Origin: a virus
IMG/VR virus record: IMGVR_UViG_3300006750_000038
Location: 1 to 33,680 of that record
DNA: 33,680 bases
Direction: 5' to 3' (one strand)
Shown: in pieces, positions 1 to 32,507 of the stretch
How positions within the stretch are numbered: the first letter of the stretch is position 1
How the letters are laid out: every line of letters begins with the position of its first letter
The notes under the pieces: model-generated
Database searches by the model: none
The model's input: the letters and a program-made list of their open reading frames with translations, nothing else
Told to the model about the DNA's origin: nothing
Made by a program: the position numbers and the translations under genes

Positions 1-534
1 ACGCAATGCATGACCCAGTTTTGTGTAATAATCAGTCTTTTTAACCTGCTGGTAAGCGGTATTTATCTTCGATGTTTTGGCGGCATTTTTTGCCGCTTGC
101 GCGGGGCTCGCGTGGATATTCTTATCTGGGTGGTGCTTCATCATTAGATCTCTCCAATGACGTTGCAAGTCTTTCTTTGTTTTGAACGTTTTGGGTCGCA
201 CGCCTAGGATTTTTAAGTTCCTTTTTAAATCGGCTCGCTGCTTTAGGGTGCCACCTAGAACGCGTGCTGAACGAGCCCTCCCCGCAAGCCAGCCCATGTC
301 GCCAGCGTACCCGGCAGCCCCACCGAGGAGCTTCCCTATTGCAGAGCCGCGCTCTTCGGCTGCCCATCTACCTTCCTCAATCTTGCCCCTGTACTTTTTA
401 AACAGTGAAGACTGAAGTTTATGTAGCATTTTCTTAGGAAAGGGTAAGTTCTCGAGTTTTCGATTGTAGAGCTTACGCCCAACCCTCTTCCCAACAAAAT
501 GCCCACCAGCAACACCGCTTATAGTCCCAATCAT
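1..534 (-). CDS. J-domain (DnaJ-like) protein, partial at left edge
   Basis: The frame is open from an ATG at 534 to the window edge, giving 178 residues with the C-terminus missing. Residues 1-20 and 63-95 are Gly/Ala-rich and basic, in the style of the 644-aa protein just upstream. Residues about 106-167 form a recognisable J-domain: helix I-like LKILGV, helix II (KDLQRHWRDLMMK), the invariant HPD loop at 135-137, then helix III ending in KINTAYQQVK. J-domains stimulate the ATPase of Hsp70/DnaK. The start is supported by AGGGGG about eight bases upstream and lies 5 bases after the stop of the 644-aa gene, so the two are probably cotranslated. Its role is inferred only: recruiting host DnaK for assembly or for handling ejected proteins. 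The J-domain call is firm; the function and full length are unknown. Confidence 0.8.
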   Translation of the reverse strand, partial: MIGTISGVAGGHFVGKRVGRKLYNRKLENLPFPKKMLHKLQSSLFKKYRGKIEEGRWAAEERGSAIGKLLGGAAGYAGDMGWLAGRARSARVLGGTLKQRADLKRNLKILGVRPKTFKTKKDLQRHWRDLMMKHHPDKNIHASPAQAAKNAAKTSKINTAYQQVKKTDYYTKLGHALR

Positions 535-5593: not shown

Positions 5594-6076
5594 TTATTGC
5601 CAGGGAACGGGTGGTGACCCTGGCGTAGTTTGCGTGCCGGTGATTGCCCACGTTGATAATACCCCGTTTAGGACTATTGTTGAAGGCATAGTAGTAGATG
5701 AAGGTGACAATGATGCCAGAGCAATTAAATTTAACACTGCCAGGGGGGGTGCGTGAACAACGGGTGCGGGGGGTGCGACATTACCCGGAATCGCGCACAT
5801 TGTAGCAAACACCATAAACCCCGCCGCTAGTGTTTCATGCGATAGAACATTAATCGCGCCCCCCTGTGCAGCCTTTACAGTTTCAATAAATAAATCTTCG
5901 CCCGAGTCCAACCCGGCAGATGTCCATAGAGGGATAACGCCATTTTCAAAAAATGCGCGTGCCACTTTTGCCCACCCAGAGACACAGTCCATATCCTCCA
6001 GGCCCGCTGCTAGCGCATCGGAAACTGCGGCCTGAATTGCTACATCCATAGCGGCTGTGGCCGTAACGTAAGGCAT
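5594..6076 (-). CDS. virion-type protein, 160 aa
   Basis: The start is set by AAGGTGAAGAAATA directly before the ATG at 6076. That ATG overlaps the upstream stop by one base (TAATG), which indicates translational coupling to the baseplate-hub-like gene. The N-terminus is Ala-rich and helical (about residues 1-60). The C-terminus is Pro/Ser/Thr-rich and ends in a WAITGTQTTPGSPPVPWQ-type tail. From memory, similar short Ala-rich proteins ending in a W-x-x-TGT...PW tail occur next to phage baseplate and tail genes, so a minor baseplate or tail role is likely. No catalytic motif is visible. Confidence 0.7.
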   Translation of the reverse strand: MPYVTATAAMDVAIQAAVSDALAAGLEDMDCVSGWAKVARAFFENGVIPLWTSAGLDSGEDLFIETVKAAQGGAINVLSHETLAAGFMVFATMCAIPGNVAPPAPVVHAPPLAVLNLIALASLSPSSTTMPSTIVLNGVLSTWAITGTQTTPGSPPVPWQ

Positions 6077-7455
6077 TATTTCTTCACCTTTACGGAGGCA
6101 GAGCCAACGTTGGGGGTAGCGGAAAATGAGGTCACCATCGGGCCGCTGGGCCCCCAGGCAGTTACGCATTGAAACGCTGTCTTCATGAAAGTTTCGAGGT
6201 CTTGGTACCTGACAACTTTGGCGTCAGCCGAGTCACCAAGGTCTATGGTTCCAGCATTGATGTCTACATGTGGGGACTTAATCTCCACGCTGTTTAGTAC
6301 GTCCATCACGACTTTCTTGCAAGCCATCTCGAACTCATTTGACTTTAGAAACTCAACATATGAGTCATCAGAGGCATCTTTAGCGCCAGAGCCCCAATCC
6401 ATCCTGGCTGACCCATGAACCGACGCATAGAGATCTTTCTCTATTTCATGCCTGATGCTCCCCTTCGTAAAAACAAAATTGTCACCATCCCTGTTTAGTT
6501 GGAACGCATACGTTACTTTGTCTTTATTATCGCCGTCATCATGACTATAAATAGTAATACTTATAACGCCCTTCTCCTCTGCAGCAATGCCCTCTCCCTC
6601 TGGCTTGCCTTTGCTCTGTCTTAGATCCGTGTTCGCAAAGATATGCTCTGCGTCCACTTCTGTGTCCAGAGCTTCGCTCGTAAGCCTGCCCACACGCAAT
6701 TCTACTGTGTACTTCCCTTTGGAGACATCTTCCTGGGCTAAGTCCTTGATGTTGTAACGAACTAAGACTGGGGTTTCTTCAGCAGTTTTAAGCGCGTTCT
6801 TCTGATCTTCGTCTAAAAAATAATTTGAATTCGGTACACTGCCGGTGCCTGCGGAGGGGCTTTCTCCATGAGCTAATACCGCATGCCCCCATTCAATTTC
6901 CCCGACAGGACTAAATGCTTGGTATCTTTGGAAATAATCACGAACAACATTTTCGACGGGAATATAAATTCTTTGCGCTAATCCTGTAGACCCAATTTGT
7001 ACTATACCGCCTCTCCGGACTACAATCTGATTCTCATCCGCTGTACCAAGGTAGATATCCCCCGGCTCTAGTGGGTGGCGAAACCCACGCCAACTCGGGT
7101 CTTGGTCTGCCATCGCCTCAATGCGCTCTGCTCCACCAGCCCCCAAACTGACAGACCCTGCCAGAGTAGGTTGCACTGTGATGGGGTTCAGAACAAACCC
7201 AATGATAAACTGTGTGCCATCCGCGCAGGAACAAACATAACAGTAGGAGTCTATCTCTGGCATGAAGTTAATCCCGCCGCCGTGATCTCTGTGGCAGTAG
7301 GGGGTAGCAAAAGGTATCGGCCCCAAGGGTTGCAGCGTATAAACGGTTAGCAACTCAACAGTCCACTCGGCAAAATTCACACTCGTAACCTTGGCCAGCG
7401 TTATGTTCGCGGGGCCGGATGATTGGCTTACGGTTTTTGTGTATGGGTCAGCCAT
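6076..7455 (-). CDS. baseplate hub / spike-like protein with N-terminal OB-like domain
   Basis: This 459-aa protein begins with a beta-rich region (about residues 14-95) that looks like the OB-fold of gpV/gp5-type baseplate spike proteins: alternating strands, then GGGINFMPEIDSYCYV and DGTQFIIGF. Beta-rich segments continue through the middle, and the C-terminal part (about 345-430) is also predicted strand-rich, as in spike stems. In myoviruses and related phages such proteins sit at the tail tip. Its ATG at 7455 overlaps the stop of the RNA polymerase gene by one base (TAATG), with GAGGG about ten bases upstream. Three clustered Cys near residues 72-77 are unusual and could bind metal. The assignment rests on fold-like pattern and context rather than on a clear signature. 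Confidence 0.6.
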   Translation of the reverse strand: MADPYTKTVSQSSGPANITLAKVTSVNFAEWTVELLTVYTLQPLGPIPFATPYCHRDHGGGINFMPEIDSYCYVCSCADGTQFIIGFVLNPITVQPTLAGSVSLGAGGAERIEAMADQDPSWRGFRHPLEPGDIYLGTADENQIVVRRGGIVQIGSTGLAQRIYIPVENVVRDYFQRYQAFSPVGEIEWGHAVLAHGESPSAGTGSVPNSNYFLDEDQKNALKTAEETPVLVRYNIKDLAQEDVSKGKYTVELRVGRLTSEALDTEVDAEHIFANTDLRQSKGKPEGEGIAAEEKGVISITIYSHDDGDNKDKVTYAFQLNRDGDNFVFTKGSIRHEIEKDLYASVHGSARMDWGSGAKDASDDSYVEFLKSNEFEMACKKVVMDVLNSVEIKSPHVDINAGTIDLGDSADAKVVRYQDLETFMKTAFQCVTAWGPSGPMVTSFSATPNVGSASVKVKK

Positions 7456-10400
7456 TAGTATGGGCCCTCGGTTACCTTGTCTTTCTTACCAAACTCTGCC
7501 GAATACGCCAATCCCGGTGCAGGATGGAGGCCGTGGATATCTGACTCCCACCCCTCGTTTGCGGCACGAATAAATGTTTCTTTTAACTTCCTGTATTGGA
7601 GTCTTGCCAACCAATCTGTAGTTTGGTCTAGCGGTAAGGTCTCTATCCCGCGTAACATCGGCTCTGTTTTGATCGTGTTTTTCATACTCTTATTAAGGGC
7701 GTTCGCGTGAGACAAAGAAATATAGTCTCCACGAATGAACTTACTTGAGTCGCCTGGGTCGGTGACCTTACCTAAATTAGTTAGCGCCTTGGTAACAACC
7801 TCTACATTACGCTTTTTGATGCCTTCCTTCTCATAGACCTTATGTATTTCGTCTGCGAGATATCGCTGCACCGTTTCTATATTGGTTTTCTCTAGGAGAT
7901 CATGTGGATTGATAATGCCACCGGACAAGGGCTGGCCTTTCCGAACTTTGGTGCCGCGTTTAACAGTAACCTTCAGGTTCCCAGGAATATAGGTCTCTTG
8001 ATTGCCCACCACAACATCATAACCGCCGATGGAACTTTCCTTCACAGATTTGATCTCTCCAGCGGCAGGAGAAAGAACGGCAGAGTTTGCTAGGGTCTCT
8101 GGCATCTTGAGCAATTGAGATATCCGATGGATACCACTAACAACTGAGCTTCCGCCGCCAGCAATTCCTCCTGTATGAAATGCTTTCATAGAAAGCTGTG
8201 TTCCACGCTCACCGATAGAGGTCCCAGCAATGAGGCCAATATTGGTTCCTTTGGCTATAGGATTCCCGTCGTCTGAAACGCCGTAACATTTGGCACATAG
8301 CCCTTTGGGTAGTTCGCATTTTAAGGGGGACCTAACAATAATTTTGTCGATCTTAGCCGACTTCAACCTGGAAAGCAGGTTTGGGGTGACCAACGTATTT
8401 GCGGACAATTTTAGCCCAGGGACAGAAACCGGTTTCGCTAGATACCGGTCAACAATATTAGAGTCCGTTGTGGGTAGAGCTATCCCCTTGCTTGTTTTGC
8501 AGTCATCCCCGGAGACAATGTAGGACATAGTAGTGTTAGCAATCTGCTTATTTAATGCCCCTGGGATCTGAACAGACTGCACCTTTTTTATCAGCCCTGC
8601 TCGAGCACCAGACGTGGTAACCCAGTAGTCTGACGACTGTAGTCCCTCTGAGTAGGAGCGGGAGATGGGAACAGGAATCGTCCTTCCTTGTGCATTCTCA
8701 ACAAGCATCGGGGAAAGAACCAGTTGCTGAAGCTGCGACCATGAGGGCTTCACTCCCGCACTCTCCATAGCTCTTAACTTATTCCCCTTCTTATCTAGTA
8801 AAGTTCGCGCCTCCGCGCTCATAGCGTTCGAGGCTTCGGTATACAGGCCGACAATCTTTTTATCCCCAGCCTCCCTGGAAAGCATATTCATGCCGACCTG
8901 CTTTTGGATAACCGCTTCCTGCACTTTTGTTTTAGCCATGTGTCTTTCACGAATCTCCCTTAGAGGCGTGAAGTCGTCTAAACTAAAGGAAAAACCAATA
9001 TTATAAGCATGCCCGAATCCAAGGTCTTTGATCTTATCGGCTGTAGTGGCGAACTCGGCGGGGGCCTTGGTAGCCACATCGCGAAGGACTTCTTGCAGCA
9101 GTTTTTTACCCAAAACAGCCTTTGGGTCTTCCAGGTATTTGGAGGTCTGAAGCTTTTTCGGTAACGTATTATTAAAAATAATACGGCCTGCTGTAGTTTT
9201 CGATGCGCCCACTTGGATGACGTCAGTCATGCTGATTTCGCCTGCCTTAGCGTCAGCAATAGCGTCTTTAGCGTTTCTATATGACTTGTCTGTTTTCTTC
9301 CCCCACTTGCTAAGAAGGTACAAACCAAGTTGACCCTCTAAGGTTGGTTGGTACATTACCTGACCTGTCGCGGGATTGAACAGATTCCTAGAGGGCATCA
9401 TCTTGTGCGCTTCGTCTACTGCCTCCTGGGACACGGGCACGAAGACCGCCATAGTGTCGCCGTCAAAATCTGCGTTAAACCCACCAACAACAAGTGGGTG
9501 GATATGGATAGCAGACTCTTTATGAAGTCTCGGCTTAAAGGCCATGATCCCAAATTTATGCAACACAGGATCACGCTTGAAAATAACGGGCCGTTTACTA
9601 ACTGCAATATCAAGAGCTTTATTAGCAAGTGACGTGTTCTTCTCAACTTCCTCACGGGCCTGCAGGGGCGTGTACCCCATCTTCACAAGTTCCCGCACAA
9701 CAAAAGGTCTGTAAATCTTCATCGCTCCCTTCCTGGGAAGCCCCATCTCGTCTAAGTGAAGATTCATGTCGGGAATAATTACAGAACGCATGCTGATGTC
9801 TTGGCGTCTGTCTACAAGTCTCTGCAGAAAGAAGCTCTGCTTAGGAGAGGATCGCCCAGATAGTATCTGAAGTATCCCGGGAGGGCTGGGTTGCCCATCG
9901 GTTGTAATACCGCCCTGAGTTGCCGTCTGGACCCCCATGAGGGCCTCTGTCGCATCGTATAAGTCACCCTGAAGTTTAGCTACCTCGCTCTCAGGAAGAA
10001 CGCCTTTTGCCTCACCAAGCTTCTTATTTAGAAGTGCAATGTCCCTATAGAGCATATTGATACCATCAATATTTAGATCCCCGCCTTCCATAGCAGTAAT
10101 TGGCCTGAACAAAGGAGGCAGGACAGGAACGTTATTTATTACATAAGCCTCCTCCGCACTTAATTTGTTCTTTTGTAGCATCAATAGGTACTTGATTTTC
10201 TTATTCACGCGATCCAAGTCACTGCGGCGGACAGTCTTAATAGCCTCTGTTGACTCAGCGAGTTGCGCGTCAATATCTACAGAAGACAATTGTGCGGCAA
10301 TAGCGGAGGGGCCTGTCTGGGTGTCCTCGGTTGCTTCTACTAGATTGCCGTCGCTATCAAAACCAAGCGAACCAGCCACTACTGCGTCGTACTCTTTGCC

Positions 10401-13400
10401 CGTTATCCCCAGAAGAGAGCGGATACCCTTCTCGAACACAGGGTTCGGGAGAACAGCGGTCAGTTTTATGTGGGACCAATTCTTGCCCCCGGGACCACCG
10501 GTAATTGTCTCGTCGAATAAACCATTTTTTTCCGGCTTGAGATCTTTTCCCCGGATAACGCGGCTCCCATCCTTTATCTCCCCGTTAGACATCGCCACAA
10601 TTTGTTTATCGGTGAGCGGAGAAACAATAAGGCCATTGCCTTCCTTCTCAACATTCAACCCAAGTGCGTTCAGGTAGGCCAGAAACTTCTCATAGGCAAA
10701 AGAGGGCTTGGGAGCAGGTAAAATAGACCCCGTTTGGATAGCTGTCCAAACTTCATCCTGAGCCTTGTCCCCTTTGTACGTAAGGGCGTCGCGAATATTA
10801 GCGGTCGCTCCGTGGGCTAACATAGCGTACAGCCCCAACTCGCCAAAGCGTTGCGCGCCACCAGACTTACCGCCGCTCTTGGGAACGAGGTTGGCGTCAT
10901 AGTCGTACCCATAACCATGAGAGCGGGCGCTCAACTTCTTGTCAACTTGATGCATCAATTTAAGGAAATACTGGTGACCCACCAAAACCTCTCCGAGGCT
11001 CTTGCCAGTCTCGGGGTCATAAAGCTCCCTGGTCTCCGACAGGCCAGCATCCTTTAGTGCAGAGTTCACAGCGTCTCGATACCCTAACTCGCGTTCGTGC
11101 TCTTTAACCTCTACTACCTTCGGGCCAGTTTTTGTCTGAATGGTACGTGTGTGTGCTTTAACGCGGATAATTTTCTTCTGGTCATCCGATTGGAAGTTCT
11201 CGACAGCAAAAGGCTCCCCATTAGCGTAGGCAATGTTACCAAGCGCTGTTTCCAAAACTTGGCCCGGATTAATCCTCCCAGGGATACCAGAGGGGCTCAA
11301 GGCAACCTGAAGCGCATTGCCCTCAGCATCTTTTGGCATCTCTTCGTCAGGTATTACTGCCGTAATAACGCCCTTATTGCCGTGGCGTCCCGAGAGCTTG
11401 TCTCCAATATCTGCAGGCTCCTCGGTTTTTATGTGAACCAAAATCTCCCTGCCATTCCTAACAACATCTGTGACCACCCCTCGGTAAGGCTTATCCCAGG
11501 TCACCGATCTATTTCGATAGGGGCGCGCCAAAGACTTGTGTATACCGCGTAAGAGAAGCTGCTCTTTTGAGGGCTCTACCTTCTGCAGAACCGTTGTTAG
11601 TACATCCCCAGGGTCAACAATTTGGCCTTTTTTAATAACCCCGTCAGCGTCCAACTTCTCTGCGTTCTCCTCGGAAACAGACCCAGGGTAGTGCGCCCTG
11701 AATTTTTTGAGCCCCACAGACATGCTCTTGTCCACGTACGCACGCTCCTTGTGGAGGTGGACGCTTGTCAGTTTCTCTGACGCAGATTCACTGATGACTA
11801 TCCCGTCCTCAAAAACAAGCCCCTTATAGGGTAGATAGCCGACGCGTAGGTTGGTCCCTAAAGCAAGGGCTCCTTGGTCAGTAAAATTTGTATCCGCAAT
11901 AGTCTGGCCCTCGGCCACTCTGTCGCCCTTTTTTACGAGGGACTTGCTTGTAATAAATGCTTTTTTATCGTTAAGCGGGAAGTTGTCGTACAACTGGACA
12001 TCGTGCTTCTTGCCCTTCGTGTCTTTCACAACAATTTTCGACGCCGAAACAGAATCCACAAAACCAGAGACAGGGGTTTCATGTGAAGTAAACCGGCCCA
12101 CAATCTTTTCCCATGTAGAGTACTCTGGCCTAGCATTACCAGATACAACCTGCACTAAAGGCTGCTCTGGGTTCTTCAGAGAAATAGCCTGAGAGATGTG
12201 CCGTGTCGCCATCCCAGCACGATTCGCCTGATCTGAAGGCAGGAAGGGGATCAGATTAGCGGTAATAGAAAACATCTGCTTGGGAGATCTGAGAATATAA
12301 TCAACCTTATCTGCGGGAACTTTGCTCGGGTCTTCCCCGCCTGCAGGGATAACCACGATGTGGTCCCCTTTCGGGATCATAGACTTGTCCGCACCTACAG
12401 AATATTGATCTGAAAAAGCAATGTTTCCTAAAATAAGTTCGGACGGAGACTTGTCTGCATACTTGCCCGCCTTGACATCGAACACCCGAATACGTGGGGT
12501 TGTCCCTGTTTTACGCACACCGAGAGCTAGGTGCCCACTAATACCAGAACGTTTTCCCTCTGGGGTTTCGACCGGGTCGATAAATCCGAGGAAGCTCGCG
12601 TCAATAAGTTTTGCCTCTTTCGAAATCGCGGCATCGCTTTGAATCCCGCCTGTCCCCATAATGGTAGTCCGTAAGAAACCGCCCATCATATCCACGGGGT
12701 TAACTTGTGATGTTTGCTGGGATAATGACGTAGAGGTAAAAAATGCTTTGATGGGAACATTAAAAATGTCCGGAGTAACGACAGCCCGAACACTCTCTCT
12801 CCTGTCCAAGTTGTTCATCATCTTATAGGTAATTCTTCTCTTAGAGTTCTGGATGCGCTCCGGGATATGATTGTCAATCGACCAGAGTTCCTTAAACTGT
12901 AAGGCATCACGATTATCAACCTTAGTCACGCCTTTATTAATGTCGATAAGCTTCTTAGAGGTTGTCAGAAGGGCATCACCGGTTACGGACTCAAAAGCCT
13001 TGCCAAGCGTTATAGCGGTTGTATCGGCACGAAGGCCCGTGTCTCCCAAGGCAGCCTGGATAACAGGGATGGCTTCCGCATCAGTCTTAACGACAACGCC
13101 CTTAGCGAGTGCTTTCGATAACTTCATAAGCTCACCACGCTTCTTCGTGGCGACAGCACTTGTGTAGAGTTCCGGTCCCCAGGAAGCTCGGATAGCGTTG
13201 TCATCTACACCGAGCGCCTGTAATACAGGCAGAAGTTGGATATTAGAAGACCCATAAGACATTAAGAATCTGCGCTTAGTCGGGTCAAACCCAAGACGAA
13301 AGCCCCGACCTTTAGTTAAATTGAACTGGGATTCAAGTTCCCCGTTTGCTTTCCGTCTAGCGTAAACACCGGACTTTAACCGCCATTGATTATCTGCTTG

Positions 13401-13730
13401 GTACTCCGTGCCATCTATGATGTAACTGTACCTGCGTGTAATCTTTGGAAGATTCAGTACCTTAAGTTTTTTTGCGGAATTGATGACTTTCCCTGTCTCA
13501 TTATTGATGAGAGTGAAGTCCCCAAAAATTCCCTGCGCCCAAGTTCGGCCCCGTAGGCGGGCTTTCTTTTGGCTTGCTATGTCATCTTCATCCACAGGAT
13601 CGCCAATGTATATGTCATTAGCAACCAACGTGTGCTTCCTCCCCTTGAGGGGGAAAAACCGTTTAATTTCCTCTATCGTCCCGTCTTCAAGGGTTTTCAT
13701 TACCCTCTGGGGATCGAGCACATTCGACAT
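7455..13730 (-). CDS. single-chain DNA-directed RNA polymerase: fused beta and beta-prime
   Basis: This 2091-aa protein holds both large subunits of a bacterial-type RNA polymerase. Beta blocks: residues 99-127 (IDGTEY...SGVYARR), rifampicin region 333-363, VETPEG at 387-392, LPYKGLVFEDGIVISE at 633-648, GDKLSGRHGNKG at 776-787, GIPGRINPGQVLETALG at 815-831, and GGAQRFGELGLYA at 957-969. Beta-prime blocks: LTDKQIVAMSNGEI at 1039-1052, KQSFFLQRLVDRRQDISMRS at 1297-1316, catalytic NADFDGD with D1421, D1423 and D1425, bridge helix about 1707-1740, trigger loop TSIGERGTQLSMKAFHTGG at 1837-1855, and the C-terminal RGIETLP region near 2027. Cys 1744, 1805, 1812 and 1815 match the second beta-prime zinc site. 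The first zinc-binding domain is absent. E. coli beta plus beta-prime total about 2750 residues, so lineage-specific insertions are missing. The ATG has GGAGGG six bases upstream. No alpha, omega or sigma is visible nearby. Confidence 0.97.
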   Translation of the reverse strand: MSNVLDPQRVMKTLEDGTIEEIKRFFPLKGRKHTLVANDIYIGDPVDEDDIASQKKARLRGRTWAQGIFGDFTLINNETGKVINSAKKLKVLNLPKITRRYSYIIDGTEYQADNQWRLKSGVYARRKANGELESQFNLTKGRGFRLGFDPTKRRFLMSYGSSNIQLLPVLQALGVDDNAIRASWGPELYTSAVATKKRGELMKLSKALAKGVVVKTDAEAIPVIQAALGDTGLRADTTAITLGKAFESVTGDALLTTSKKLIDINKGVTKVDNRDALQFKELWSIDNHIPERIQNSKRRITYKMMNNLDRRESVRAVVTPDIFNVPIKAFFTSTSLSQQTSQVNPVDMMGGFLRTTIMGTGGIQSDAAISKEAKLIDASFLGFIDPVETPEGKRSGISGHLALGVRKTGTTPRIRVFDVKAGKYADKSPSELILGNIAFSDQYSVGADKSMIPKGDHIVVIPAGGEDPSKVPADKVDYILRSPKQMFSITANLIPFLPSDQANRAGMATRHISQAISLKNPEQPLVQVVSGNARPEYSTWEKIVGRFTSHETPVSGFVDSVSASKIVVKDTKGKKHDVQLYDNFPLNDKKAFITSKSLVKKGDRVAEGQTIADTNFTDQGALALGTNLRVGYLPYKGLVFEDGIVISESASEKLTSVHLHKERAYVDKSMSVGLKKFRAHYPGSVSEENAEKLDADGVIKKGQIVDPGDVLTTVLQKVEPSKEQLLLRGIHKSLARPYRNRSVTWDKPYRGVVTDVVRNGREILVHIKTEEPADIGDKLSGRHGNKGVITAVIPDEEMPKDAEGNALQVALSPSGIPGRINPGQVLETALGNIAYANGEPFAVENFQSDDQKKIIRVKAHTRTIQTKTGPKVVEVKEHERELGYRDAVNSALKDAGLSETRELYDPETGKSLGEVLVGHQYFLKLMHQVDKKLSARSHGYGYDYDANLVPKSGGKSGGAQRFGELGLYAMLAHGATANIRDALTYKGDKAQDEVWTAIQTGSILPAPKPSFAYEKFLAYLNALGLNVEKEGNGLIVSPLTDKQIVAMSNGEIKDGSRVIRGKDLKPEKNGLFDETITGGPGGKNWSHIKLTAVLPNPVFEKGIRSLLGITGKEYDAVVAGSLGFDSDGNLVEATEDTQTGPSAIAAQLSSVDIDAQLAESTEAIKTVRRSDLDRVNKKIKYLLMLQKNKLSAEEAYVINNVPVLPPLFRPITAMEGGDLNIDGINMLYRDIALLNKKLGEAKGVLPESEVAKLQGDLYDATEALMGVQTATQGGITTDGQPSPPGILQILSGRSSPKQSFFLQRLVDRRQDISMRSVIIPDMNLHLDEMGLPRKGAMKIYRPFVVRELVKMGYTPLQAREEVEKNTSLANKALDIAVSKRPVIFKRDPVLHKFGIMAFKPRLHKESAIHIHPLVVGGFNADFDGDTMAVFVPVSQEAVDEAHKMMPSRNLFNPATGQVMYQPTLEGQLGLYLLSKWGKKTDKSYRNAKDAIADAKAGEISMTDVIQVGASKTTAGRIIFNNTLPKKLQTSKYLEDPKAVLGKKLLQEVLRDVATKAPAEFATTADKIKDLGFGHAYNIGFSFSLDDFTPLREIRERHMAKTKVQEAVIQKQVGMNMLSREAGDKKIVGLYTEASNAMSAEARTLLDKKGNKLRAMESAGVKPSWSQLQQLVLSPMLVENAQGRTIPVPISRSYSEGLQSSDYWVTTSGARAGLIKKVQSVQIPGALNKQIANTTMSYIVSGDDCKTSKGIALPTTDSNIVDRYLAKPVSVPGLKLSANTLVTPNLLSRLKSAKIDKIIVRSPLKCELPKGLCAKCYGVSDDGNPIAKGTNIGLIAGTSIGERGTQLSMKAFHTGGIAGGGSSVVSGIHRISQLLKMPETLANSAVLSPAAGEIKSVKESSIGGYDVVVGNQETYIPGNLKVTVKRGTKVRKGQPLSGGIINPHDLLEKTNIETVQRYLADEIHKVYEKEGIKKRNVEVVTKALTNLGKVTDPGDSSKFIRGDYISLSHANALNKSMKNTIKTEPMLRGIETLPLDQTTDWLARLQYRKLKETFIRAANEGWESDIHGLHPAPGLAYSAEFGKKDKVTEGPY

Positions 13731-13760: not shown

Positions 13761-13771
13761 TTAGGTATAAG
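13755..13771 (-). promoter_or_regulatory. candidate phage promoter motif upstream of RNA polymerase
   Basis: On the minus strand the site reads CTTATACCTAACTAACA. CTTATACC ends 33 bases before the RNA polymerase start codon. The same 8-mer CTTATACC, followed by AACA, lies 30 bases before the 332-aa gene start, and a 13-of-14 match (ATACCTAACAAACA) precedes the DNA polymerase gene. This is a promoter candidate by recurrence only; no transcript data are available. Confidence 0.4.
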
Positions 13772-13774
13772 AAC

Positions 13775-13797
13775 TATGGGGCAATGTAGCCCCCATA
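13775..13797 (+). promoter_or_regulatory. hairpin upstream of the plus-strand island
   Basis: TATGGGG (13775-13781) pairs with CCCCATA (13791-13797) over a 9-base loop, immediately before the AAAAGGAG ribosome binding site of the 27-aa peptide. It is not followed by a T-tract in the plus direction, so a terminator is unlikely there. It may control translation of the island or the RNA polymerase mRNA leader on the other strand. Confidence 0.4.
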
Positions 13798-13815
13798 AGA
13801 AAAGGAGTCCTGCAA

Positions 13816-13899
13816 ATGAATACACGCAGAACCACGTCTACCAGTTCTACTACAGAAGATCTGGCAGACGCCGTTGAAAAATCTCTCGACGGTAAATAA
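13816..13899 (+). CDS. 27-aa Ser/Thr-rich peptide
   Basis: A short frame with a textbook AAAAGGAG eight bases before its ATG. The product starts MNTRRTTSTSSTT and ends with a short acidic amphipathic helix. It is on the plus strand, opposite to its flanking genes, and its stop is directly followed by the GTG start of the zinc-ribbon gene, so the two form a mini-operon. Function is unknown. Support is the ribosome binding site and the gene junction rather than similarity. Confidence 0.5.
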   Translation: MNTRRTTSTSSTTEDLADAVEKSLDGK

Positions 13900-14115
13900 G
13901 TGAAGACAATTAAAAAGATAAAGTGCTTCATAAAATCGGGTTACTGCCAGAGTCCAGCGAATTGCGGCCAGTGTGAATACTTCCTGGACGTCAAAAGAAA
14001 TTATTGGGTCTGCCCTAAGTGTCTCAAACATAGCGATAACACCTCCAGCTTTTTTCAAAGCGGAAGATGTGACCGATGCGAGAAGCCAACGGCGATACTC
14101 GTTTGTGTGGACTAG
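13900..14115 (+). CDS. 71-aa Cys-rich zinc-ribbon protein
   Basis: The 71-aa product has nine Cys (9, 16, 22, 25, 38, 41, 57, 60, 69). C38-x2-C41 and C57-x2-C60 make a classical zinc ribbon, and C9/C16/C22/C25 could form a second zinc site. The N-terminus is Lys-rich. The start is a GTG directly abutting the TAA of the 27-aa peptide, implying translational coupling. Its TAG lies in a palindromic CTAG that also gives the stop of the convergent portal gene. It sits beside an RNA polymerase that lacks a zinc-binding domain, so a transcription-accessory role is conceivable but unproven. A general nucleic-acid- or protein-binding ribbon is equally possible. Confidence 0.7.
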   Translation: MKTIKKIKCFIKSGYCQSPANCGQCEYFLDVKRNYWVCPKCLKHSDNTSSFFQSGRCDRCEKPTAILVCVD

Positions 14116-16148
14116 ATTTGAGCACTTCCGGGTCCTGACCTAGGTGGTAGCTTCTCTGGTAGTGGTTGCATGGGAGCCATGCCTCCGCCAGACAGAGCAT
14201 TGTTTACTAACATATATAAATCCGGGTTCGCGGCACGTAACTGTGCCAGGACCCGGTACCTTTCCACTTCCTCCATCTTTTTTAGCTCGGAAGTCATCCT
14301 GCGGGCCTGAGCGAATAAGTCAACCATGGGGCTCTGTGTAGATTGAACAGGGCTCTGGGCTGCTCCCTGAACAACGCCACCAGCTTCCGGAGGGGCCTGT
14401 TGCCCGGGAGGAGCTTGTTGCCCGGGAGGAGCTTGTTGTTCACCCGGCGCGGCCTGCGCCCCAGCAGGCGGAGCACCTTGTTGTGGCGCTCCTTGTTGTG
14501 GCGCTCCTTGTTGTGGGGCACCGCCTTGTGGAGGAGCGCCGCCTTGTTGTTCCGCGCCAGGAGGAGGGCCATATTGCTGCTGCATCTGCATCTGGTTTTC
14601 TTGCTGCATGTTCTGGGACTGGATTTGATATCTGGTCTGGACAAGCATGGCTTCGCCTTGAGCCTCTACCTGCTTCAGTTGCTGTTCCCGTTGAGCGCTG
14701 GCAGCGACCTCCCCCTCTACCTTGAGTAGGTCACGCTCGGTATCAAAATTATAATCTCTAGACGCCAAGAAAGATCTACGACTAATCATACCCGCATTGG
14801 CTAGATTCATATCAAAACTAGCCCGCTGAATATCATCTGCCATTTTGAAGGGCTTAAACTTGATGTTGACGTTTGGGAGGCCCATGAATTGAGAAACCCG
14901 GTCGCGGATAAACTCAACACAACGGAGCATGTCTTGCCTATTACCAAGAAACTCATTCTCGAGTGCTCGTAGGTTGACAGAAGCGCCGGAATACTGCGCC
15001 TCACCGTAGAAAAACCCTGTAGGCACACCCATGCCAGCGATAATCTGATCGGAGTAAACGCGTAACTCTTGGTGCAGAAGTAAGCTCCGACCCTGCCCAC
15101 CAATCATCTGGTACCCGATGGGAACAGGCATTACAGGTATGTGATTATTGTCCTGACGCCAACGTTTGATCTGAGTCTGGACCTCTTTTTGCCAATCCTG
15201 TAAATTGATTTGCGCGTAGGGGTTACTTCCATCCGTTGTTACCTGCGGGAACATGACGCGCATGGGAACAATATGCTCCATCGCTACGGCTTCTTGAGCT
15301 TTCCGAAGAATCTGCAAGAAGAAGATGTCTTTCAAGACGGGGAGGATAAGCGGAGCGCCCCACCCACTATCGGAAGGCTCTCTAGAGATAGAAGGTCTAC
15401 GACTATGGAATATCTTGGTGCTGTCTAAAAGAACGGAACGCTTCTTCCTGATAGCATCAATAAATGCCTGGGGAATCGTTTCCAGGATATCCGGCTTACC
15501 TAGAGTAATATCGTTTCTGAGCGCCCTCGGCATCTTGTAATAATATAGGTAGCGGCCCGTTATCTCATTGTATTTTATGGTGATATGTTTTGGGTTCCAG
15601 CGGATCAAACGGATCTTGACGGCAGCTTTGACAGGCTCGTCTACAACTTTAGCGGGCCCACTGTAGTCACAAGCTGGGCAAGTTAGATGGAACTTAAAGC
15701 CCTTCCACTTGTAGCCAGATTTCTTCGCAGGGACACTGTTCCCGCAAGAGGTGCAATGGAGAACCTTATTGAAGGGGAAGGCTACCGAAATAAAGGAGTT
15801 ACCATAAGTGTATCTGTCGAGATTAACTTCAATCAAAAACGAACGAAGCAAAAATTGCTTCTCAAAAAGATCCTTATAGATCTTTACCAAGCCCTCGTTG
15901 TCTTCCTCGTACACCAAGTCTGTAATTGGGTACGTAGCCAACTTCTGTGTAACCGCATTAATAAGTGGGTTAGTAAGTTGGTAATAATGACACCAGTCAA
16001 AGGTCTCCTTAATAGTCTTGGGCATGTAGTTTTTAGCTACGTCAAAGAAAGGGCTGGGGTAAAAAGACTCGGGCCGTCCGACAGACTTCGCCCGAGAACT
16101 TGCTGAAGATAAACCGTATCTCTGGGAACCGTAGTCCATTTGGGGCAC
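14112..16148 (-). CDS. portal protein with embedded zinc ribbon and Pro/Gln/Gly-rich tail
   Basis: This 678-aa protein would form the dodecameric portal at the head-tail vertex through which DNA passes. Portal hallmarks are residues 360-400 (DQIIAGMGVPTGFFYGE, then GASVNLRALENEFLG), the LRKAQEAVAMEHIVP segment near 281-295, and helical stem and crown regions. Unusual features: a C132-x2-C135 / C157-x2-C160 zinc ribbon inside the N-terminal clip/wing region, and a low-complexity Pro/Gln/Gly/Ala tail at about 525-598, followed by a helical C-terminal segment. The ATG has AAAGGAG upstream and lies 4 bases after the 223-aa gene. The gene ends tail-to-tail with the zinc-ribbon gene in a shared CTAG. 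Confidence 0.88.
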   Translation of the reverse strand: MPQMDYGSQRYGLSSASSRAKSVGRPESFYPSPFFDVAKNYMPKTIKETFDWCHYYQLTNPLINAVTQKLATYPITDLVYEEDNEGLVKIYKDLFEKQFLLRSFLIEVNLDRYTYGNSFISVAFPFNKVLHCTSCGNSVPAKKSGYKWKGFKFHLTCPACDYSGPAKVVDEPVKAAVKIRLIRWNPKHITIKYNEITGRYLYYYKMPRALRNDITLGKPDILETIPQAFIDAIRKKRSVLLDSTKIFHSRRPSISREPSDSGWGAPLILPVLKDIFFLQILRKAQEAVAMEHIVPMRVMFPQVTTDGSNPYAQINLQDWQKEVQTQIKRWRQDNNHIPVMPVPIGYQMIGGQGRSLLLHQELRVYSDQIIAGMGVPTGFFYGEAQYSGASVNLRALENEFLGNRQDMLRCVEFIRDRVSQFMGLPNVNIKFKPFKMADDIQRASFDMNLANAGMISRRSFLASRDYNFDTERDLLKVEGEVAASAQREQQLKQVEAQGEAMLVQTRYQIQSQNMQQENQMQMQQQYGPPPGAEQQGGAPPQGGAPQQGAPQQGAPQQGAPPAGAQAAPGEQQAPPGQQAPPGQQAPPEAGGVVQGAAQSPVQSTQSPMVDLFAQARRMTSELKKMEEVERYRVLAQLRAANPDLYMLVNNALSGGGMAPMQPLPEKLPPRSGPGSAQI
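14398..14520. repeat. in-frame tandem repeats within portal gene
   Basis: Two 18-base copies of TGTTGCCCGGGAGGAGCT lie at 14398-14415 and 14416-14433. Three 15-base copies of CCTTGTTGTGGCGCT, the last divergent, lie at 14476-14520. All unit lengths are multiples of three, so they encode repeated Gln-Ala-Pro-Pro-Gly-Gln and Gln-Gly-Ala-Pro-Gln units on the minus strand. Copy number could vary between isolates without breaking the frame. Confidence 0.85.
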
Positions 16149-17806: not shown

Positions 17807-17829
17807 GGTTTCTCCCACAAGGGCTTAAA

Positions 17830-17844
17830 TGTTTTTGGTATAAG
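17830..17844 (-). promoter_or_regulatory. candidate phage promoter motif upstream of the portal operon
   Basis: On the minus strand the site reads CTTATACCAAAAACA, with CTTATACC ending 30 bases before the ATG at 17806. It shares CTTATACC and a following AACAT with the RNA polymerase leader. Read on the plus strand, GGTATAAG could instead be a -10-like element 45 bases before the first early gene; the motif alone does not settle the direction. Confidence 0.4.
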
Positions 17845-17889
17845 CAAACCGGAAGCCCCTAAATTTCTAAAAACAACCCGGAGGGTATG

Positions 17890-27439: not shown

Positions 27440-27706
27440 ATGCGCCTCCCTGACCCCTGGTTTTTCTACGTGGCCGAGTGCGCCGATTCGTCCCTCTATG
27501 CTGGTATTACTACTAATATAGAGAGGCGGATCGGAGAGCACAATAAGGGCGCGCGGGGGGCTAGGTATACAAGAAGCAGAAGACCGGTTCACCTAGTAAT
27601 GTCGCGGGAGTTCCCCGATAGGTCTAGCGCGTCAAAATACGAGTGTAAATTTAAAAAGTTTACCAGAAAAAGAAAACTGACAGAAATTCGGAGACGAAAT
27701 GGATGA
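27440..27706 (+). CDS. GIY-YIG domain protein (UPF0213/YhbQ-like)
   Basis: An 88-aa single-domain GIY-YIG nuclease-fold protein. The motif reads FYV (9-11) and YAG (20-22), with R29 and E68 at the catalytic Arg and metal-binding Glu positions and a YTRSRRPV segment typical of the small YhbQ-like group. These bacterial proteins are poorly understood and suspected to act on branched or damaged DNA. It starts 1 base after the DNA polymerase stop and overlaps the next gene by 8 bases. It looks like a domesticated operon gene rather than a homing endonuclease, since nothing is interrupted nearby. Confidence 0.85.
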   Translation: MRLPDPWFFYVAECADSSLYAGITTNIERRIGEHNKGARGARYTRSRRPVHLVMSREFPDRSSASKYECKFKKFTRKRKLTEIRRRNG

Positions 27707-32192: not shown

Positions 32193-32507
32193 ATGGGCGA
32201 CAAGAATCACACACTGAAACTATCTCCATTAGAGCTTCAACACATGGTTTGGGAAAAGCATGAAAAGCGAATTGCTATCCATACAAAGCCCGAACAAATA
32301 CAAGAACTTTTACCGTATAAGGTAGATGAAATCCCAGAAAACCAATTTAACCATATGCGTGATGAGATCATGCTTTACATTGAGAGGCACAAAAATATGT
32401 TATCCCTGCCCTGCGACGGCAATTGTTATGGACACACAGACGGAGTAGTAGTGTTTTGTCACCAACAACTCCTGGAGGATCAGTCGAATGACCGCGACAA
32501 AAATTAA
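32193..32507 (+). CDS. hypothetical 104-aa protein with Cys/His cluster
   Basis: The ATG has TAAGGAGAGGCT upstream. The first 70 residues are helical and charged. Residues 74-89 contain C-x3-C-x-H with a later Cys and His (CDGNCYGHTDGVVVFCHQ), a possible metal site. The 3' end overlaps the AT-hook gene by 20 bases. No family recognised. Confidence 0.6.
   Translation: MGDKNHTLKLSPLELQHMVWEKHEKRIAIHTKPEQIQELLPYKVDEIPENQFNHMRDEIMLYIERHKNMLSLPCDGNCYGHTDGVVVFCHQQLLEDQSNDRDKN

Follow-up and report, generated by a model that had tools for sequence, protein, structure and literature searches.

A fused beta-beta-prime RNA polymerase gene of bacterial type in a phage family

Does a phage carry the core of a bacterial RNA polymerase as one continuous chain? 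The question is raised by a stretch of viral DNA of 33,680 nucleotides (IMG/VR record IMGVR_UViG_3300006750_000038, positions 1 to 33,680; the whole stretch is referred to below as the window), in which a single frame of 2,091 amino acids resembles the beta subunit of RNA polymerase in its first half and the beta-prime subunit in its second. We consider it probable, at roughly 0.8, that the product of this gene is a core RNA polymerase of bacterial type which belongs to the phage and consists of one chain, working as set out below. As judged from sequence comparison, the fused polymerase is real and conserved, being shared by a large number of uncultured, tailed phages; in all likelihood it is active and depends on a sigma factor.

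The fused frame and its conservation

The frame runs from an ATG start to a TAA stop with no internal stop codon. The gene, its two halves and the elements recognised within them are as follows:

7455..13730, minus strand: fused beta-beta-prime RNA polymerase gene, 2,091 amino acids (open frame and profile searches)
10626..13730, minus strand: beta-like part, residues 1-1035 (NCBIfam PRK00405 6e-123, TIGR02013 1e-108; Pfam Rpb2_3/6/7)
7458..10625, minus strand: beta-prime-like part, residues 1036-2091 (TIGR02386 1e-163 and AlphaFold model)
11526..11573, minus strand: putative flap-tip helix PSKEQLLLRGIHKSLA (alignment to E. coli beta; role by homology)
11370..11390, minus strand: GRHGNKG motif of beta, residues 781-787, kept
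10476..10523, minus strand: site of the deleted beta-prime N-terminal zinc ribbon, GLFDETITGGPGGKNW (alignment to E. coli beta-prime)
10005..10052, minus strand: putative first arm of the beta-prime coiled coil, or clamp helices (alignment and helices in the model; role by homology)
9456..9476, minus strand: catalytic NADFDGD, residues 1419-1425
8286..8507, minus strand: cysteines of zinc site 2, residues 1744, 1805, 1812 and 1815 (alignment)
8166..8180, minus strand: trigger-loop FHTGG, residues 1851-1855 (alignment)

The original prediction had described one frame holding beta blocks and then beta-prime blocks, NADFDGD among them, and had suggested profile searches as a check. Both the description and the check were borne out: the Pfam domains are colinear, with Rpb2 domains 3, 6 and 7 (residues 340-996) followed by Rpb1 domains 1, 2, 3 and 5 (residues 1151-1995), the catalytic motif lies where listed above, and in the NCBIfam searches residues 1-1035 matched bacterial rpoB models and residues 1036-2091 rpoC models. 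Bacterial models scored far better than archaeal ones (1e-108 vs 1e-36 for rpoB; 1e-163 vs 2e-22 for rpoC), and an archaeal-type origin was ruled out by this difference. A phmmer search against PDB beta-prime gave an E-value of 2e-112, the closest solved chains were, among the matches listed, all bacterial, and identity to the bacterial subunits was about 28-30%. The possibility that the frame is a provirus or cellular gene was also rejected, since a scan of bacterial genomes gave, among the matches listed, ordinary separate rpoB and rpoC genes at no more than 31% identity (18 checked).

Alignment to E. coli beta and beta-prime showed the chain to be colinear along its whole length. The beta-like sequence ends at about residue 1030 and the beta-prime-like sequence begins there, essentially without a linker: the beta C-terminus GGAQRFGELGLYAMLAHG... 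passes directly into the beta-prime start LKPEKNGLFDE.... The insertions of the E. coli lineage are missing, and the beta-prime N-terminal zinc ribbon is deleted, with GGPGGKNW spanning the gap. The original prediction of a complete, compact fusion in the structural region of a tailed phage is supported, as are the colinearity and the bacterial type of the chain. The trigger loop and the zinc site are conserved across the clade of the window. In bacteria, the flap-tip helix is the docking element for sigma region 4 and the beta-prime coiled coil that for sigma region 2; by alignment, both are retained in the fused chain.

The beta-prime half was modelled by AlphaFold using residues 900-2091 and 38 relatives as input, which yielded a predicted local distance difference test (pLDDT) of 87.5 and a predicted template modelling score (pTM) of 0.84. 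Superposed on Thermus beta-prime, the model aligned over 1,027 residues with a Z-score of 34.1 and a root mean square deviation of 3.0 A; for bacterial beta-prime chains in general the alignments covered about 1,020-1,036 residues at Z-scores of 31-34. The structure prediction suggested earlier as a check thus returned, for this half, a bacterial beta-prime fold, and the modelled half, folded alone, matches bacterial beta-prime end to end. Taken together, the colinear domains, the DxDGD motif and the predicted beta-prime fold identify the chain as a two-barrel beta/beta-prime enzyme of bacterial rather than archaeal type.

To what extent the fused frame is shared was assessed by scanning IMG/VR for polymerase relatives. 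A first scan gave 16 loci and a second, performed with an alignment, 79. Among 82 distinct contigs with a relative, one uninterrupted fused frame was found in 73, with lengths of 1,993-3,010 amino acids (median 2,087); of the other nine, seven run off the end of their contig, and in the remaining two a lone in-frame stop breaks a frame that continues beyond it. These two stops (TGA at 10074-10076 in L064, TAG at 8146-8148 in L070) may reflect sequencing error, mutation or recoding. Three of the fused polymerases (L094, L114 and L115) carry insertions which, by their position and end residues, are intein-like and fall at conserved active-site motifs: the sites are TPE|G and GIP|GR in beta and, in the beta-prime part of L115 (3,010 amino acids), behind NADFDGDAM and within FH|TGG. 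Inteins choose such catalytic-loop and trigger-loop sites in essential, active enzymes.

These findings bear on two ways in which the frame could mislead. An assembly artefact or a chance joining of two genes, which the original prediction had named as grounds for abandoning it, was ruled out as an explanation by the 73 independent intact frames from different metagenomes, and the overlapping domain order and missing linker likewise speak against it; we regard its probability as negligible. A chance origin is in any case excluded by the phmmer E-value given above together with the fused frame being intact in 73 of 82 contigs. The other is that the chain is a decayed, inactive polymerase retained as a structural or regulatory protein, for which the in-frame stops in the two relatives could be cited; none of the 73 complete frames has lost the DxDGD motif, the window's clade conserves both trigger loop and zinc site, and the intein-like insertions sit at sites chosen in essential, active enzymes, so that this explanation appears very improbable.

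Sigma-like protein, promoter-like motif and gene surroundings

Two near relatives of the window, G007 (181,199 base pairs) and G005 (173,034 base pairs), have identical ends of 119 base pairs, as expected of complete circular assemblies. Of 34 frames compared between the window and G007, 32 find their best match there and in the same order, and the gene order around the polymerase is identical between the window and both relatives.

A 323-amino-acid protein of G007 has weak matches to sigma regions 2 and 3, and sigma70-like homologues of it were found in 22 of the 26 family genomes, including the cultured Salmonella phage Arash and Vibrio phage D69. Their alignment displays regions 2, 3 and 4 in that order; region 3 exceeds the Pfam cut-off in 13 genomes, region 2 is weak in the fused clade, and region 4 was recognised by eye. 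A structure model of the protein, for which two rows from public phage records were left out of the alignment, gave local matches to the sigma chains of solved initiation complexes (E-value about 1e-7). In one genome (G025, locus L108) the match to the sigma-like homologue, at 13780-14409, reads through one TAA; Arash (OQ632216) has two different sigma-like proteins, at 120974-121165 and 11907-12578, one annotated as RpoS-like and the other being the family homologue. Pfam models of alpha found no match in any of 26 family genomes and those of omega none in any of 22, with control genomes positive in both cases. Because both docking elements are kept and a sigma70-like protein is conserved in related phages, the evidence points to a sigma-dependent enzyme.

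The word GTATAAG emerged from word counts upstream of genes in four related genomes. It is part of a bipartite motif common to the near relatives, GCAAA-N17-GTATAAG, in which GCAAA lies about 17 bases upstream of the core and a G six bases downstream of it. A position-weight matrix was trained on G007, G005 and G003, with G006 held out; in the latter, 12 sites scored above 14, and 10 of these fall in noncoding sequence, which makes up 5.7% of the genome; 0.0 were expected in shuffles. Standard TTGACA/TATAAT promoters were considered as well and dropped, TTGACA not being enriched upstream of genes. Within the window two sites are candidates:

17811..17853, plus strand: candidate phage promoter, core GTATAAG at 17838-17844 (matrix score 22.9; 0.0 expected in shuffles)
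32288..32330, plus strand: candidate phage promoter, core GTATAAG at 32315-32321 (matrix score 22.1)

The former is directed into the replication-gene cluster; the evidence for the latter is weaker because it is located among genes.

The polymerase itself is found in a structural cluster, between the portal gene and the next gene of the cluster, and it directly follows the portal also in Arash and D69:

14112..16148, minus strand: portal protein gene, immediately preceding the polymerase gene (tblastn: Arash portal 3e-87, phage G portal 2e-16)
6076..7455, minus strand: next gene of the structural cluster, its ATG overlapping the polymerase TAA (TAATG)

The right half of the window encodes, on the other strand, helicases, primase, a family-A DNA polymerase, a UvsX-like recombinase and resolvases. 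A 94-amino-acid TTG frame between portal and polymerase (13774-14058) was discarded as a gene, having no match in the syntenic complete relative, and an Rfam search of the window gave no matches. The spacer between polymerase and portal (13765-13899) contains, on the plus strand, a GTATAAG core conserved in all 10 near relatives aligned; it is followed by a ribosome-binding site and then a tiny frame, of 27 amino acids in the window (MNTRRTTSTSSTTEDLADAVEKSLDGK) and mostly 27-46 in its kin, with an acidic C-terminus in common. This frame could encode a small protein that regulates the polymerase or its leader. Elsewhere in the window, a DnaJ domain (1.3e-7) lies near the C-terminus of a structural-cluster protein (1-534, minus strand) and a small GIY-YIG nuclease gene is located amid the replication genes (27440-27706, plus strand).

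Cut forms, mechanism and rival readings

Cultured phages carry a version of the same enzyme. The polymerases of Arash and of Vibrio phages D69, D148 and D181 are homologous to that of the window over 97% of its length and share the fused joint; as in the window, the polymerase of these phages lies directly downstream of the portal, and they have sigma-like proteins of their own. Unlike in the window, beta-prime is cut after the catalytic motif, into 1,525 and 606 amino acids in Arash and 1,527 and about 609 in D69. In all four cut forms gene 1 encodes beta and the first part of beta-prime, and gene 2 the rest (about 606-610 amino acids). The catalytic motif of these cultured phages is YAADYDGD and the trigger loop is altered, as compared to NADFDGD and FHTGG in the window. 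Some uncultured Arash-type relatives are cut once more within beta-prime, near query residue 1,110-1,144, with the joint still fused. Arash-type enzymes are cut only inside beta-prime, save for locus L209, which is also cut in beta; its pieces measure 524, 1,005 and 616 amino acids, the first and second being separated by about 930 bases. In D148 and D181 a homing endonuclease is annotated under the polymerase match. In a quick tree the cut forms were nested among the fused ones. A phylogeny had been suggested as a further check; a site-mixture model, with an outgroup of bacteria only, kept the phage clade apart from bacteria.

The reading we favour can be laid out as follows. In bacteria, an alpha dimer and omega bring beta and beta-prime together; in the phage, joining the two covalently end to end would build this assembly role into the chain. 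The active site would lie between two barrels of one polypeptide, with the magnesium triad of DxDGD, and its bridge helix, trigger loop and clamp would follow the bacterial pattern. The phage sigma70-like protein would dock on the coiled coil and the flap tip that the chain has kept, pick promoters, and presumably read GCAAA-N17-GTATAAG. The fusion would have been present in the common ancestor of the phage family, the Arash/D69 branch having later divided beta-prime over two or three genes while leaving the joint uncut. What we infer in this picture is that the enzyme is catalytically active, can do without the alpha and omega of the host and pairs with the sigma-like protein, and also which genes it transcribes.

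Several results weigh against it. The model of the sigma-like protein is poor overall (pTM 0.36, template modelling scores of about 0.25) and good only locally, and for this reason the sigma assignment rests on local matches and motifs. The gene for this protein lies outside the window, which at 33.7 kilobases is a fragment, and was found in relatives. The held-out genome G006 is related to those used for training, so that some motif sites are shared by descent and the test is not wholly independent. The Pfam negatives leave room for an unrecognisable alpha or omega, or for use of the host's. Finally, the site-mixture model leaves the base of the phage clade unsettled, and the claim of an ancestral fusion is therefore based on the shared fused joint, not on the tree.

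One possible alternative is that the chain works only together with host alpha and omega, so that it would replace beta and beta-prime in fused form without being a core sufficient in itself. Close bacterial homology in both halves and the failure to find either subunit in the phage genomes would fit; at about 28-30% identity, however, and in phages of many habitats, contacts to one host's alpha are probably not kept, and we consider this scenario unlikely. An additional proposal concerns timing: the polymerase may be packaged in the virion and injected for early genes, as are phi14:2 gp66 and P23-45 gp96, and not serve middle or late genes. The gene lies inside the structural cluster with overlapping stop and start codons, also in Arash and D69, and the best candidate promoter of the window points into the replication genes, which would require the enzyme early. 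On the other hand, a host polymerase with the phage sigma could read GTATAAG, and a rigid, cell-like enzyme would have to cross the tail tube; passage of this kind is, as its authors suggest, the reason why the virion enzyme of P23-45 has no clamp any more, whereas the window chain keeps the clamp helices. Virion packaging is accordingly given slightly less than even odds. The most extended version of the favoured reading, a self-sufficient single-chain core without alpha or omega, activated by a dedicated phage sigma at promoters of its own and delivered with the virion, with the split enzymes of cultured phages cut from a fused ancestor, is held tentatively and with somewhat less confidence still.

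If active, the enzyme would amount to a bacterial-type RNA polymerase pared down to a single chain and a sigma, near enough in sequence to the cellular enzyme for a part-by-part comparison; from it one could learn whether alpha, omega, the zinc ribbon and the insertions are parts that a sigma-dependent enzyme can dispense with, and it could serve for gene expression from one gene. How split phage polymerases arose can be tested on the series of one-chain, two-gene and three-gene forms, and Arash and D69, being in culture, are directly open to experiment.

Comparison with known polymerases

Among the closest described systems are the mReC phages, which are tailed, known largely from metagenomes and IMG/VR, and carry bacterial-like beta and beta-prime in a clade apart from cells (PMC7481178, 2020, Weinheimer and Aylward). 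The main text of that paper refers to two subunits, beta and beta-prime, and uses the word fused for the crAss enzyme only, the methods would admit a fused protein, some contigs exceed 200 kilobases, and capsid was detected in 8 of 97 contigs, matching PF07068. The window fits the mReC traits given there (matches to both beta and beta-prime, NADxDGD, and a clade separate from cells in trees with a bacterial outgroup), and the mReC terminase family PF03237 is present in 15 of 23 genomes of its family. The capsid family PF07068 was found in none of 29 genomes of the window's family or the Arash branch, with phage T4 positive as a control, and identity with mReC is not supported by way of the capsid. 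The window is best described as an mReC-like phage, and identity with mReC is likely in part.

Phage-encoded enzymes with two barrels in one polypeptide are known in crAss phage phi14:2 (gp66) and in P23-45 (gp64/gp96) (PMC10770324), and fusion is known to have happened repeatedly (PMC7281927). These enzymes form a separate, highly divergent clade, the crAss enzyme having, according to PMC7481178, no recognisable similarity to cellular beta/beta-prime models, whereas the window chain matches such models at 1e-108 to 1e-163. Among the open-licence papers searched, a stated beta-beta-prime fusion in such phages was not found beyond crAss, P23-45 and general remarks. The novelty claimed by the original prediction holds for the complete fusion of bacterial type, and was overstated in that single-polypeptide two-barrel phage enzymes and the bacterial-type mReC enzymes were already known.

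Other systems share single traits. The rpoB-rpoC fusions of Helicobacter and Wolbachia (PRK09603, PRK14844) likewise place beta before beta-prime, and their models match both halves of the window chain in order; they are, as had been noted at the outset, host genes and longer (about 2,840-2,890 amino acids vs 2,091), and the window scores 233-352 bits against cut-offs above 4,600 and is not a member. Two-gene phage enzymes are known from Carin-5 (Cobetia) and from YerA41 and GN1 (Yersinia); these phages and RHph_TM30 (Rhizobium) also encode bacterial-like beta and/or beta-prime. Carin-5 represents the ordinary two-gene state, with separate genes of 1,083 and 927 amino acids adjoined by a sigma gene and located near replication genes rather than the portal; RHph_TM30 has a 1,127-amino-acid beta-prime gene near replication genes. 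In phiKZ and AR9, beta and beta-prime are each split over several genes, unlike in the window, and the cellular alpha2 beta beta-prime omega enzyme consists of separate chains, whereas the window's family is fused in 73 of 82 contigs and has no alpha or omega detectable by Pfam models. What appears to be new is that a broad family of phages has the bacterial layout in one chain, that descendants with a cut-up enzyme exist, and that a sigma-like protein is conserved along with the polymerase and a candidate promoter goes with it.

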